From an uncultured Acidimicrobiales bacterium (lineage in GTDB: Bacteria > Actinomycetota > Acidimicrobiia > Acidimicrobiales > SZUA-35), in NCBI GenBank assembly GCA_937925335.1, contig CALEWY010000106.1, forward strand, positions 1-64,000: 64,000 nt of DNA. Reading direction: 5' to 3'. Below, in pieces: positions 14,214 through 19,339 of this stretch. The position numbers and the translations under genes were made by a program. The stretch's first letter is position 1, and each line of letters opens with the position of its first letter. The notes below the pieces were generated by a model. The model did no database searches, was not told the origin of the DNA, and saw nothing but the letters and a program-made list of their open reading frames with translations.

Positions 14214-14235
14214 TCAGAGCGTTTGCTCGGCGGTG

Positions 14236-14433
14236 TTACTCGCCGCCGCCCGGGAGCTTGTCGGTGAGACCGTCGAGCTTGTCGCCGTGCTCGTCGAGCA
14301 TCTCGCTGGCCTTGTCACCAAGACCACCGGGGAGCTTGTCGCCGTGCTCGGCAACTGCGTCCTTGGCCTTGTCGGCGAGTCCGCCGAGGTCGGCGCCCTC
14401 AGCCATGTCTTTTGCCTTGTCGAAGATGCCCAT
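14236..14433 (-). CDS. Small antitoxin/CsbD-like charged helical protein
   Basis: MGIFDKAKDMAEGADLGGLADKAKDAVAEHGDKLPGGLGDKASEMLDEHGDKLDGLTDKLPGGGE. Confidence 0.65.
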   Translation of the reverse strand: MGIFDKAKDMAEGADLGGLADKAKDAVAEHGDKLPGGLGDKASEMLDEHGDKLDGLTDKLPGGGE

Positions 14434-14685
14434 TTTGGAGCTCCTTGTTTTCTTTGTTTGGGGTGTTCAGGGGTTATGACGCCGGATCGTGGAGATTTGT
14501 CGCGACAAATCTGCAAGATCGTGCGACTGTCAAGGGGAGAGCATGGGCAATACACCCTGCTTGAACCTTGTGTGACAAACTACACAAAAGAACCCGGAGA
14601 GTGGCGACGCTCCCAGGCCCCAGCTGGCCTTTCCCTTGCTGGGACCGATCTGGTTCCGCCACCTCCTCCGACAACCGAGGAGCAC

Positions 14686-15780
14686 ATGGACGTCTTACGG
14701 AAGGCCGACCGGCGAGTTCTCTGGTGGGCGATCGCAGCCTTCGTTCTGCTGTGGTTACTCGGCGCGTTCTGGGTGATGCACGGGGTTGAAGACCCGCTCA
14801 CCGAACGAGCACAAGGAATCGATTCGTTTGAAGCAGTCGACGGAGCAACGATCGAGTTCAACGGCCGCGATGGCTATCTCGCCGTTCCTGAAGGCACGGC
14901 AAACGCTGAACAGATCGCATCCGACATTGCCGACATCCGCGGAGTCCGCGATGTCGAGATCGAAGTTCTCGGAGCAGCAACCGGGCAGATGGACGAGGTC
15001 GAGGAGCCACCAACGACTCAGGCCCTCGACCCTGAGCCAGAAGAAGCAGTGGTCGAATCCACTCCTGCGGTCTTCGGCGTGACGTGGGACGAAGCCGGTG
15101 CAACACAGAGCGGTGATGCACCGGACGACCTGAGCGGTGCTGTCGCTGCCCTCGGTGTGGCTTCACCGCTCACCGGGTCCGACCTCACCGTTGGACCGGC
15201 GGTTGATCCAACGCTGTCGGCACTGGCGCCGCTCATCGGTACGGACCTGCAAACAGGCAGTGTCGATGTCGACGACGGAACAGTTGTGATCCGAGGCACC
15301 GCCGCAGATCAAGCGGCGTTCGATCGGGCGACCGAGGCGCTGGCTGATGTTGACGCCACCGTCGAACTCGACATTGCTGCTCCACCGGAGGACGACGGAG
15401 CTCTCGAGGCAGACTCCGCCCAGACGGCATTCGACGAACTGTTGGCACTCGACAAGATCGAGTTCGTCACTGCGACGTCGATCCCGACCGATGCGACCGA
15501 GACGATCATCGACGAAGTCGCCGCAACGCTGACCGAGTTCCCGGACGTTTCCGTTGTGATCACCGGTCACACCGATGCGCAGGGCCCCGAACCGGCGAAT
15601 CAGCTCCTGAGCGAACAGCGAGCACAAGCCGTCGTTGACGGTCTCGTCGCACGGGGCATCGATCCCGCACGACTGCAAGCGAGCGGTAAGGGCGAAACCG
15701 AACCGATCGAAACGAATGACACCCCAGAAGGTCGGCAGAGCAATCGCCGAGTGGAAATCGACGTTGAGGAGAATGGCTGA
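14686..15780 (+). CDS. Membrane-anchored OmpA-family peptidoglycan-binding protein
   Basis: N-terminal TM LWWAIAAFVLLWLLGAFWVM; OmpA core VSVVITGHTDAQGPEPANQLLSEQRAQAVVDGLVARGIDPARLQASGKGETEPIETNDTPEGRQSNRRVEI. Confidence 0.88.
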   Translation: MDVLRKADRRVLWWAIAAFVLLWLLGAFWVMHGVEDPLTERAQGIDSFEAVDGATIEFNGRDGYLAVPEGTANAEQIASDIADIRGVRDVEIEVLGAATGQMDEVEEPPTTQALDPEPEEAVVESTPAVFGVTWDEAGATQSGDAPDDLSGAVAALGVASPLTGSDLTVGPAVDPTLSALAPLIGTDLQTGSVDVDDGTVVIRGTAADQAAFDRATEALADVDATVELDIAAPPEDDGALEADSAQTAFDELLALDKIEFVTATSIPTDATETIIDEVAATLTEFPDVSVVITGHTDAQGPEPANQLLSEQRAQAVVDGLVARGIDPARLQASGKGETEPIETNDTPEGRQSNRRVEIDVEENG

Positions 15781-18700
15781 TGAGTTGGTTCCCGGACATG
15801 TTTTGGTTGTTTGGCGAATGGTGGCTGTGGATGCTCTTGCCGTTGTTGGCGGGCCTTGCCATCGGCTGGTGGTTCTGGCGCCGTCCATGGCGTCTCGGTC
15901 TTGCCGACCACGAAACGCAGATCACGGGCTTGCGCCACGAGCAAGCTGGGTTGCGGTTTGATCTCGACGAAGCGCGTACGCAGCTCGGCGAGCGCGACAG
16001 TTCGATCCTGGCACTCAACGGTCAGGTCGGAGAGTTGCAAACGACGAAGACCTCGTTGATGGATGTGCGCGGCGAGCGCGATCAGATGTCGGCTCGTATC
16101 GGTGAGCTGGAAGGTGATCTGACCGCTCGCGAATCTGCTGCATCGGCGCTTGAACGCGACCTTGCAGGCGTGCGGACGAACCTTTCGACGACGGAGAGCG
16201 AACTCGTTGGCAGCCGCGAACGAGCTGATGGGCTGGCAGCTGAGCTCGCCGGAGCGCAGGATCGCATCGGCGTGCTCGAGGGAGAGCTCAACGGCGCCAA
16301 CGCTCGAGTTGGAAGGCTTGAAACCGAACTGGGCGATGCTCGTTCTCACGCTGGTCAACTCGAGGGTGAGTTGTCTGGTCGGAATGCGGAGTTTGGTGAG
16401 TTGCAGGGCTTGATGGGCTCGACGACGCAGCGTTCGGGTGAGCTCGAAAATGAACTTGCTGGCGCTCACGAGCGAACTGCGGCTGTTCAGTCAGAACTCG
16501 ACGGATTGCGAGCTTCGTCGGCCGAGCTCGAGTCGACCGTGAACGACCTACGTTCCGGTTTGGCTGAGCGTGAAGGTCGGATTGCTGAGTTGGAGTCCGA
16601 AGCTGCCGTGCTCGGGACCGAGGTCATCGATCTGCGCTCGAGCGTTGATGAGCGTTCGCAGCGGGCGAGTGCGTTGCAGTCAGAGCTCGCCGGAAGAGAC
16701 GCACGAATCAGCGAACTCGAAGGCGCTGCTGCTGGGCTCCAGAGTGATGTCGATTCGAACGTCGAGCGAGCTGCGATTCTCGAGCGGAACTTCTCCGGGA
16801 GCCAGGGTCGAATCAGCGAGCTGGAGAACGAACTCGCCGGCAGCGGCACCCGTATCGGTGAGCTCGAAGGAGAGCTCGCCGCCCGAAACGGCCGCATCGG
16901 TGAGCTCGAAGGTGAGTTGTCAGGGCGTGATGGCCGGATTGGTGAGCTTGAAGGTGAGTTGTCCGGGCGTGATGCGCGGATTGGTGAGTTGCAGGGCCTG
17001 GTCGGCACCTCTGACCAACGAAGCTCTGAACTCGAGGCAGAGCTCTCGACTGCATCGAGCCGCATCGGCGAACTCGAGATTGCACTCACGACCACTCGTT
17101 CTCAAGTCACCAGCCTCGAAGACGACATATCCGGGCGAGACGGTCGGATCGTTGAGCTGGAAGGTCAGCTCAGTCGTATCGATGAGCTCGAAGGTGAGCT
17201 GGCCGGACGCAACGGCAGAGTCGACGAGCTTGAGAACGAGCTTGCTGGCCGTTCGAGTCGGGTCGGCGAGCTTGAAGGTGAACTTGCCGGCAGTAGCGGA
17301 CGGATCGCTGAGCTCGAAGGTCAGCTCGGCCGCATCGGTGAATTGGAGACCGAGCTTGCTGGTCGTTCGAGTCGAGTTGCTGAGCTCGAAGGTCAGCTCG
17401 GCCGCATCGGTGAGCTGGAGAACGAGCTTGATGGTCGTTCGAGTCGAGTTGCTGAACTTGAGGGTCAGCTCGGCCGCATCGGTGAATTGGAAGCCGAGTT
17501 GGTCGGTCGATCGAGTCAGGTTGCCGAGCTGGAGAGCGAACTCGCCGGCAGTAGTCATCAGGTCGGCGAACTCCAACGTCTCGTCGGGTCGGCAGACCAA
17601 CGGGCAACCAAACTCGACGGGGAGTTGGCGAACGCCTCCAACAGAGTGTCCGAGCTCGAAGGCGCACTCGCCGAGGCAACAAACCGCGCCGGTGATCTGC
17701 AAGGTCGGATCGAAACGGGTGACGGTCGAATCGAAGAACTCGAACGCGTGCTTGCAGCGCGTAATGGTCGGATTGGTGAGCTCGAAAACCTCGCCAACCG
17801 GATCCCTGGTTTCGAAGCCGATCTCGCCGGCCGTGACGGACGCATCGCTGAACTGGAGGGCGAGCTCGATGGGCGTTCGGCCCAGATCGGCGAGCTTGAG
17901 GCTGAGGTCTCGAACATCGCCGGGTTACAGAGCAACATGGCGAGCCTCGAGGGTCGGATTATCGAGCGTGACTCTGAGCTTGCTGCACTGCGGGCTCAGC
18001 TCGCCGAAGCAGAGGCTCGTCCGGCCTTCGAACCCCTCGTTGGTGACGGGCAACCGGACAACGATGCGTTCGCTCGTCGACTCGCTCTCGTCCGAGCAGA
18101 CCGAGACCTCGGCTACACCGACGATCTCAAGTTGATCAAGGGCGTCGGACCGAAGATGGAGGAGCTACTGAACAACAACGGCCTCGAGACCTTCTACGAA
18201 GTGGCGTTGCTCGACGCCGATGCTGTGGAAGCCCTCGAAGGTCGCCTCGATGCATTCCCCGGCCGCATCGTGCGAGACGAATGGGTCCCACAGGCCGCCG
18301 GCCTCCACGGGGTCCATCACGGCGAGGACATTGCCGATCAAGTCACCATCGCCCCGTCGGCTGAACGCCAGGCGCTTGCCGAGGCGGGTCATGCCGACTT
18401 CTTCGAGGCTCGGATGGCCTCGATCTCGTCGGATCGCGATCTCGACTACACCGATGATCTCAAGTTGATCAAGGGTGTTGGGCCGAAGTTGGAAGGTGTG
18501 CTGCACGACAACGGGCTCACGACCTTCTTCCAGGTTGCGATGCTCGACGACGCAGCGGTGGACGACCTCGAAGAACGCATCGACACGTTCCCTGGGCGAG
18601 TGCGTCGTGACGACTGGGTGCCACAGGCCGGCCGGCTGCACGGCACACATCACGACGAGGACATCGAAGCGGATGTTGTCATCCCGTGGTTTGCTGGCGA

Positions 18701-19253
18701 ACCGCCGGCCGAATCGAAGTCATCAGCACCGGCTGACTATGTCGATGACCTGAAGCCGATCAAGGGTGTCGGGAAGAAGATGTCCGAAGCGCTGGCGGGG
18801 GAGGGGATCACCAACTTTTACCAGTTGGCGGTGCTCACCGATGCCGAGGTCGATGCGCTCGAAAGCCGAATGGGTGTCAGCGGCGGGCGAATCCGCTCGG
18901 AGAACTGGATCCCTCAGGCTGCGCAGCTCCACTATGAGCAGTACGACGTCGAGATCTATGACCTCGTCACGGTCGAAGGGGTCTATGCCGACGAGTTCGA
19001 ACGCCAGTTGATGACCAACGCTCGAGGTCGGAAGTTCAACTACGTGGACGACCTCAAGTTGATCAAGGGGGTCGGCCCCAAGATGGAGAAGCTCCTCAAC
19101 AGCAACGGGCTCAAGACCTTCCTGCAAGTCTCGCTACTCAATGAGGCTGGGGTCTCAGCGCTCAACGACCGGCTCGAGTTCTTCCCGGGCAGGATCCTGC
19201 GAGATGACTGGGTCGGACAGGCCGGGTCGCTCCACGGCGAACACCACGGTTGA
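15780..19253 (+). CDS. Giant membrane-anchored coiled-coil repeat protein with four C-terminal HhH-like modules
   Basis: N-terminal TM WLWMLLPLLAGLAIGWWFW; long (R)IGELEGELxGR repeats; four D-D-L-K-x-I-K-G-V-G-x-K modules; overlaps the OmpA-gene stop. Confidence 0.85.
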   Translation: MSWFPDMFWLFGEWWLWMLLPLLAGLAIGWWFWRRPWRLGLADHETQITGLRHEQAGLRFDLDEARTQLGERDSSILALNGQVGELQTTKTSLMDVRGERDQMSARIGELEGDLTARESAASALERDLAGVRTNLSTTESELVGSRERADGLAAELAGAQDRIGVLEGELNGANARVGRLETELGDARSHAGQLEGELSGRNAEFGELQGLMGSTTQRSGELENELAGAHERTAAVQSELDGLRASSAELESTVNDLRSGLAEREGRIAELESEAAVLGTEVIDLRSSVDERSQRASALQSELAGRDARISELEGAAAGLQSDVDSNVERAAILERNFSGSQGRISELENELAGSGTRIGELEGELAARNGRIGELEGELSGRDGRIGELEGELSGRDARIGELQGLVGTSDQRSSELEAELSTASSRIGELEIALTTTRSQVTSLEDDISGRDGRIVELEGQLSRIDELEGELAGRNGRVDELENELAGRSSRVGELEGELAGSSGRIAELEGQLGRIGELETELAGRSSRVAELEGQLGRIGELENELDGRSSRVAELEGQLGRIGELEAELVGRSSQVAELESELAGSSHQVGELQRLVGSADQRATKLDGELANASNRVSELEGALAEATNRAGDLQGRIETGDGRIEELERVLAARNGRIGELENLANRIPGFEADLAGRDGRIAELEGELDGRSAQIGELEAEVSNIAGLQSNMASLEGRIIERDSELAALRAQLAEAEARPAFEPLVGDGQPDNDAFARRLALVRADRDLGYTDDLKLIKGVGPKMEELLNNNGLETFYEVALLDADAVEALEGRLDAFPGRIVRDEWVPQAAGLHGVHHGEDIADQVTIAPSAERQALAEAGHADFFEARMASISSDRDLDYTDDLKLIKGVGPKLEGVLHDNGLTTFFQVAMLDDAAVDDLEERIDTFPGRVRRDDWVPQAGRLHGTHHDEDIEADVVIPWFAGEPPAESKSSAPADYVDDLKPIKGVGKKMSEALAGEGITNFYQLAVLTDAEVDALESRMGVSGGRIRSENWIPQAAQLHYEQYDVEIYDLVTVEGVYADEFERQLMTNARGRKFNYVDDLKLIKGVGPKMEKLLNSNGLKTFLQVSLLNEAGVSALNDRLEFFPGRILRDDWVGQAGSLHGEHHG
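17328..17543 (+). repeat. 72-bp tandem repeat, 3 copies, in coiled-coil gene
   Basis: GGCCGCATCGGTGA.. copies start at 17328, 17400 and 17472, encoding GRIGELExELxGRSSxVAELExxL. Confidence 0.85.
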
Positions 19254-19299: not shown

Positions 19300-19339
19300 A
19301 GAGAGCGTGATGAGTGGGGAACCACTCATCACGCTCTCT
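19300..19339. terminator. 18-bp perfect hairpin AGAGAGCGTGATGAGTGG-GGAA-CCACTCATCACGCTCTCT
   Basis: Read directly, about 47 bp after the coiled-coil stop; followed by GCAGTTTTGG. Confidence 0.8.

Follow-up and report, generated by a model that had tools for sequence, protein, structure and literature searches.

To our knowledge, bacterial devices that mechanically couple peptidoglycan to the cytoplasmic interior are very few. HubP of Vibrio cholerae displays an external peptidoglycan-binding domain, one transmembrane (TM) helix and a large acidic cytosolic part with a C-terminal domain, and it recruits cytoplasmic machinery (PMC8789113). ZapG/YhcB is made of an N-terminal TM helix and a cytoplasmic coiled coil and is linked to envelope synthesis (PMC8163987). 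Rv0899/OmpATb of Mycobacterium tuberculosis has a TM-BON-OmpA layout, and its operon was reported to aid ammonia secretion and acid adaptation (PMC6151718). Meanwhile, only the N-terminal membrane helices of protein-O were resolved in the RC-LH1 structure of Dinoroseobacter shibae, whose authors described the function of this protein as unknown and called its C-terminal domain obscure in function (PMC12079452).

We identified a cassette of two genes within a window of 64,000 nucleotides (the whole stretch of DNA analysed here) from an uncultured Acidimicrobiales bacterium (Table 1). The upstream gene (start ATG at 14686, stop at 15778-15780) encodes an OmpA protein of 364 aa. A first-pass annotation of this DNA had placed the pair at 14686-19253, exactly as found here. 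It had also described the OmpA gene, with its TM helix and peptidoglycan-binding core, as overlapping the start of a gene for a protein with an N-terminal TM helix, about 700 residues of coiled coil and four HhH-like modules, all of which our analyses bear out: the overlap amounts to one shared base and the coiled coil to ~720 residues.

Table 1 Features of the gene pair and its surroundings (positions within the window)
Feature	Position	Strand	Basis
TM-BON-OmpA gene, candidate cell-wall anchor	14686..15780	+	PF00691; 2l26 alignment
OmpA-protein TM helix, K/R ahead of helix (predicted N-in, C-out)	14716..14772	+	hydropathy and flank MDVLRKADRR
BON-like region, weak	15259..15354	+	PF04972 E 0.0011, under cut-off
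OmpA-like peptidoglycan-binding core, HTD and LSxxRA residues	15487..15747	+	Pfam, partner comparison
OmpA stop and partner start sharing one base, TGATG	15778..15782	+	sequence
TM-coiled coil-4x HhH protein, 1157 aa	15780..19253	+	ORF, Pfam
Partner TM helix, followed by RRPWR (predicted N-out, C-in)	15801..15878	+	hydropathy, flanking charge
Coiled-coil rod, acidic (net -74), 13% Gly	15903..18059	+	3.48-residue periodicity
42-bp tandem repeats in rod	16833..16988	+	DNA repeats
72-bp tandem repeats in rod	17307..17530	+	DNA repeats
HhH module 1	18105..18335	+	residues 776-852
HhH module 2	18438..18668	+	residues 887-963
HhH module 3	18729..18959	+	residues 984-1060
HhH module 4	19032..19250	+	residues 1085-1157; AlphaFold pLDDT 93.7
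Perfect 18-bp inverted repeat, GGAA loop, just 3' of gene pair	19300..19339	.	read from sequence

The domain content of the OmpA protein points to a cell-wall anchor. Residues 268-354 matched PF00691 with 75.4 bits (E 4.6e-21; curated cut-off 27.2), which places the protein in the OmpA-like family. The domain displays HTD at residues 295-297 and LSEQRA around 309-312, and the D...R motif is present in 37 of the 41 partners compared across loci. We take this D and R to be the residues of the diaminopimelate site. Gripping of peptidoglycan by this protein is thus strongly predicted. Residues 139-360, spanning the BON region, aligned with the structure of Rv0899/OmpATb (2l26, E 5.6e-17). As for the Rv0899-type layout, the TM helix (residues ~11-29) and the OmpA domain are present, while the BON-like stretch (residues 192-223) stayed below the PF04972 threshold. 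The BON domain was above cut-off in the OmpA partners of Bacteroidota, and the combination of BON and OmpA occurs in partners from Acidimicrobiia, a MAG labelled Deinococcales, Rhodobacteraceae and Bacteroidota.

The residues flanking the TM helices provided insights into the orientation of both proteins. Among 41 OmpA-paired partner proteins, 39 displayed an excess of K/R on the C-terminal side of the TM helix (residues ~8-33 of the protein from the window) and none the opposite, and the charge bias of the OmpA partners was reversed in 28 of 38. Under the positive-inside rule, these charges strongly suggest that OmpA lies outside and that spacer and modules lie inside the cell, supporting the geometry of a tether. 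The first-pass annotation had made its proposal depend on a coiled coil that faces the cytoplasm, and this prediction agrees with it. In addition, a G-x3-G-W pattern recurs in the TM helix of the partners, together with the basic C-flank.

The rod that follows the TM helix has a heptad periodicity. Across residues 42-760 (719 residues), Leu, Ile, Val and Met recur with a period of 3.48 at a power of 40.2, compared to a maximum of 9.3 among 1000 shuffles, and this signal falls to background within the HhH modules. Matches of the rod to crescentin, SMC, Rad50 and tropomyosin-type models of Pfam and NCBIfam were attributed to coiled-coil composition, the Rod_CreS score of 92 bits being below its cut-off of 100. 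The spacer between TM helix and first module measures 85 to 1014 residues across homologues, is either coiled coil or Pro-rich, and is followed by one to four modules. Since both its length and its type vary, the rod is the least conserved part of the system, and the OmpA partner, TM helix and module are what is conserved. The tandem repeats at the DNA level suggest that the rod grows through duplication of repeats; these repeats and the range of spacer lengths rule out a ruler of fixed length. The inverted repeat downstream of the pair probably marks the end of its transcript, as judged from its sequence.

The gene pair was found in at least three bacterial phyla. A TM-spacer-module gene is immediately preceded by an OmpA gene in 28 Acidimicrobiia, 11 Rhodobacteraceae and 8 Bacteroidota loci, as well as in the MAG labelled Deinococcales (L013), so that the conservation survey suggested in the first-pass annotation finds the pair kept across phyla. 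In one paired locus of Acidimicrobiia, which comes on top of the 27 counted below, a frameshift interrupts the rod. The module occurs in 25 of the 39 genomes of the window's family. Of 295 in its class, 90 matched the profile, roughly half of them strongly; weak matches to short ORFs in this survey (~E 1e-6 to 1e-10) were set aside as probably belonging to other HhH families. Among the 54 TM-carrying module loci of Acidimicrobiia with enough upstream sequence, OmpA was directly upstream in 27 and directly downstream in two; the true paired fraction is higher, because these loci include several enzyme fusions. Adjacency by chance would amount to ~0.25% per gene, assuming ~10 OmpA genes per ~4000 genes (a gene number estimated from the genome size of 4.4 Mb).

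The surroundings of the pair differ between clades, suggesting that the two genes are held together on their own account. In the window's clade an M50 peptidase and SUF genes flank them. A search for a third gene that stays with the pair throughout found none, neighbours being conserved only within clades. In another family of Acidimicrobiia, the cassette lies beside dnaK-grpE-dnaJ at ten loci, on the opposite strand in those inspected. In the window, a short ORF preceding the OmpA gene (14214-14435, minus strand) is rich in GDK/LGGLADKAKD repeats; it had no Pfam match at E 0.001 and is presumably MT0933-antitoxin-like. An OmpA-BON and module pair in the same order was also seen in a genome labelled Oceanobacillus (L014), a label that may be wrong or a bin that may be mixed. 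One genome with a paired copy carries a second TM-rod-4-module gene without OmpA neighbour (L143:4791-10277, minus strand; frame of 1829 residues).

The C-terminal modules are members of a recognizable family. HHH_5 (PF14520) matched four stretches of the partner protein (E 2.4e-14; 54 bits, cut-off 27), and the modules are 44-66% identical to module 4 in the module alignment. The AlphaFold model of the single module, with a mean pLDDT of 93.7, shows short helices flanking a GVG hairpin, which makes the HhH assignment sound. For the four modules together, the model gave separate well-formed domains of uncertain mutual placement (pLDDT 83.5, pTM 0.43). A set of residues, D-D-L, G-x-G and GR-x2-RD-x-WV-x-QA, is conserved across phyla and contexts. 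We dismissed the flap endonuclease or 5' nuclease reading given by the COG name, since Pfam and NCBIfam show no nuclease catalytic domain in the 401-residue module region, where models of repair proteins and nucleases match only over short HhH stretches. One gene (L155:2017-3894, minus strand) contains two almost identical modules with their flanks, resulting from a very recent internal duplication.

The same module, of a type that we take to be COG3743, is carried by a diverse set of other proteins. It matched NCBIfam NF009040 (E 1.5e-66), NF008915 (E 8e-56) and chain O of PDB entry 8yy9 (E 1.7e-12). Profile matches showed it appended to alphaproteobacterial NuoE, bL21, uS2 and phasin PhaH, with NuoE being a carrier in Rhodobacteraceae, and the ~65-residue module is also found in protein-O of D. 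shibae RC-LH1. In Acidimicrobiia it is fused to ribosomal bL20 and to ATP synthase gamma. A membrane Fe-S oxidoreductase that has CCG and nitrate-reductase-gamma-like domains is a further carrier. A module tree, built on few columns, poorly resolved and used only to contrast lineage with context, places modules with others of their lineage (4 changes) and not with others of their context (24).

Several of these fusions were seen at individual loci. The bL20 proteins (L161:5376-6245; L162:2008-2928, minus strand) have an acidic/Pro-rich linker before a C-terminal HhH module, and two ATP synthase gamma subunits (L178:4911-6350; L181:5026-6315) also end in one. Two NuoJ and one NuoC from genomes of the Deinococcales MAG's phylum carry the module (L216:2072-2962 and L217:721-1626, both minus strand; L219:5376-6242). 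Flavobacteriaceae have it at the C-terminus of NrfD-family membrane proteins at four loci and about ten others, and two Bacteroidota bL21 proteins carry it as well. Within complex I alone, the three subunits NuoE, NuoC and NuoJ have been fused to the module in different lineages, making accident hard to credit.

Based on these findings, we postulate, with a probability of roughly 0.5, that the gene pair encodes a wall-anchored cytoplasmic hub split over two proteins, whose modules dock large complexes. The OmpA protein would be held in the cytoplasmic membrane by its uncleaved N-terminal helix and would grip peptidoglycan outside. Its co-translated partner would sit alongside it through a Gly-rich helix, the two proteins presumably being bound TM helix to TM helix, and would extend a variable spacer into the cytoplasm. 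In the window this spacer is a coiled coil, with a maximal reach of ~107 nm were it helical throughout. The HhH-derived modules at its tip may then act as protein-docking domains that cluster or hold large complexes of the cytoplasmic face by the wall; we infer that they bind protein rather than nucleic acid.

The first-pass annotation had instead proposed a tether from envelope to nucleoid, in which cytoplasmic HhH modules would bind the chromosome irrespective of DNA sequence and be joined to the wall via OmpA. The envelope-to-cytoplasm part of this proposal stands and the predicted topology is compatible with it, while its nucleoid end fares poorly. The module is a true member of the HhH fold with a G-V-G hairpin, and four copies could provide avidity. 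A fold search of PDB and viral libraries gave no significant match to the module; the best non-significant ones were N-terminal domains of RadA/RAD51 paralogues, which favour DNA. Since the NusA AR2-SuhB complex and protein-binding SAM domains also appeared in this search, the fold does not by itself decide between DNA and protein.

The residues of the module also bear on DNA binding. In its favour, Lys 12 and Lys 17 are present in most modules, and Arg 54 and Arg 57 are kept in about 90%. However, roughly one module in three has N, S or V in place of the hairpin lysines, and the net charge averages -3.4 over 69 OmpA-paired modules, with only 3 above zero. A DNA-binding (HhH)2 domain has a second hairpin, and here a conserved FPGR-x2-RD-x-W stretch takes its position. 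Thus, of the DNA-binding features on which the nucleoid proposal depended, the pair of hairpins is missing and the net charge is acidic, and the two highly conserved arginines are present. Moreover, the proteins that carry relatives of the module include respiratory and photosynthetic subunits, for which no role in DNA is known, as well as ribosomal and storage-granule (phasin) proteins, contexts unrelated to DNA. Collectively, this makes a nucleoid tether unlikely.

The pair could also be an envelope stress or permeability operon of the OmpATb/ArfA type, the partner being an accessory membrane subunit and its HhH modules only a stabilising or regulatory tail. The best solved relative of the OmpA protein, Rv0899/OmpATb with its TM-BON-OmpA layout, speaks for this; however, the residues of the module are conserved over phyla beyond the needs of a passive tail, and we regard such an operon as improbable. 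Least probable is a tether for ribosomal or other RNA drawing translation to the membrane: fusions to bL20, bL21 and uS2 in several phyla and a weak match to ribosomal protein S13-like HhH folds are consistent with it, but the module occurs just as often on complex I, NrfD, ATP synthase and phasin, and it is acidic.

Some observations also count against the wall-anchored hub. About half of the TM-type module genes of Acidimicrobiia have no OmpA neighbour, and the non-significant fold matches include DNA-binding HhH domains. Profile searches of the window's genome (4.4 Mb, 82% complete) returned no module carrier beyond the TM-rod-HhH protein, so simple docking of module to module is not visible there, and the ligand would be something else or the protein's own module copies. 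In Rhodobacteraceae, 2-5 module copies co-occur, and docking between them is possible. A broader and rather doubtful version of the hub would make the HhH module a docking tag that roams among proteins, repeatedly fused to complex I, ATP synthase, NrfD-type complexes, photosynthetic reaction centres and ribosomes, with the OmpA cassette as the wall-anchored form of this tag. If true, tag and cassette would make up a general system by which large machines are attached to the envelope.

The cassette is common to monoderm Acidimicrobiia and to diderm Rhodobacteraceae and Bacteroidota, and would thus be a widespread coupling device. No description of it was found in the open-access literature searched, and the pair looks like an undescribed way to keep large cell machinery at the envelope. 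It also offers a direct route to the role of the HhH module on NuoE, bL21 and D. shibae protein-O.

Among known systems, proteins of the COG3743 type share the ~65-residue module, and protein-O is likewise membrane-anchored at its N-terminus. They differ from the present protein, from an acidimicrobial MAG, in which four copies end a ~720-residue rod beside OmpA and no known host protein is fused. The OmpA protein resembles Rv0899 (OmpATb/ArfA) in its TM and OmpA parts and, more weakly, in the BON-like one, whereas its partner gene encodes a TM-rod-HhH protein. ZapG/YhcB is much shorter and has neither HhH modules nor an OmpA partner. HubP is a single protein with LysM and TPR, whereas here OmpA and HhH modules are divided between two proteins; LysM, FimV and TPR were not among the Pfam matches listed for either (the best 25 for the TM-rod-HhH protein). 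Because its parts are split over two proteins and its domains are different, the cassette is not a member of the HubP/FimV family but would be HubP-like in its working, and HubP appears to be its closest working analogue.
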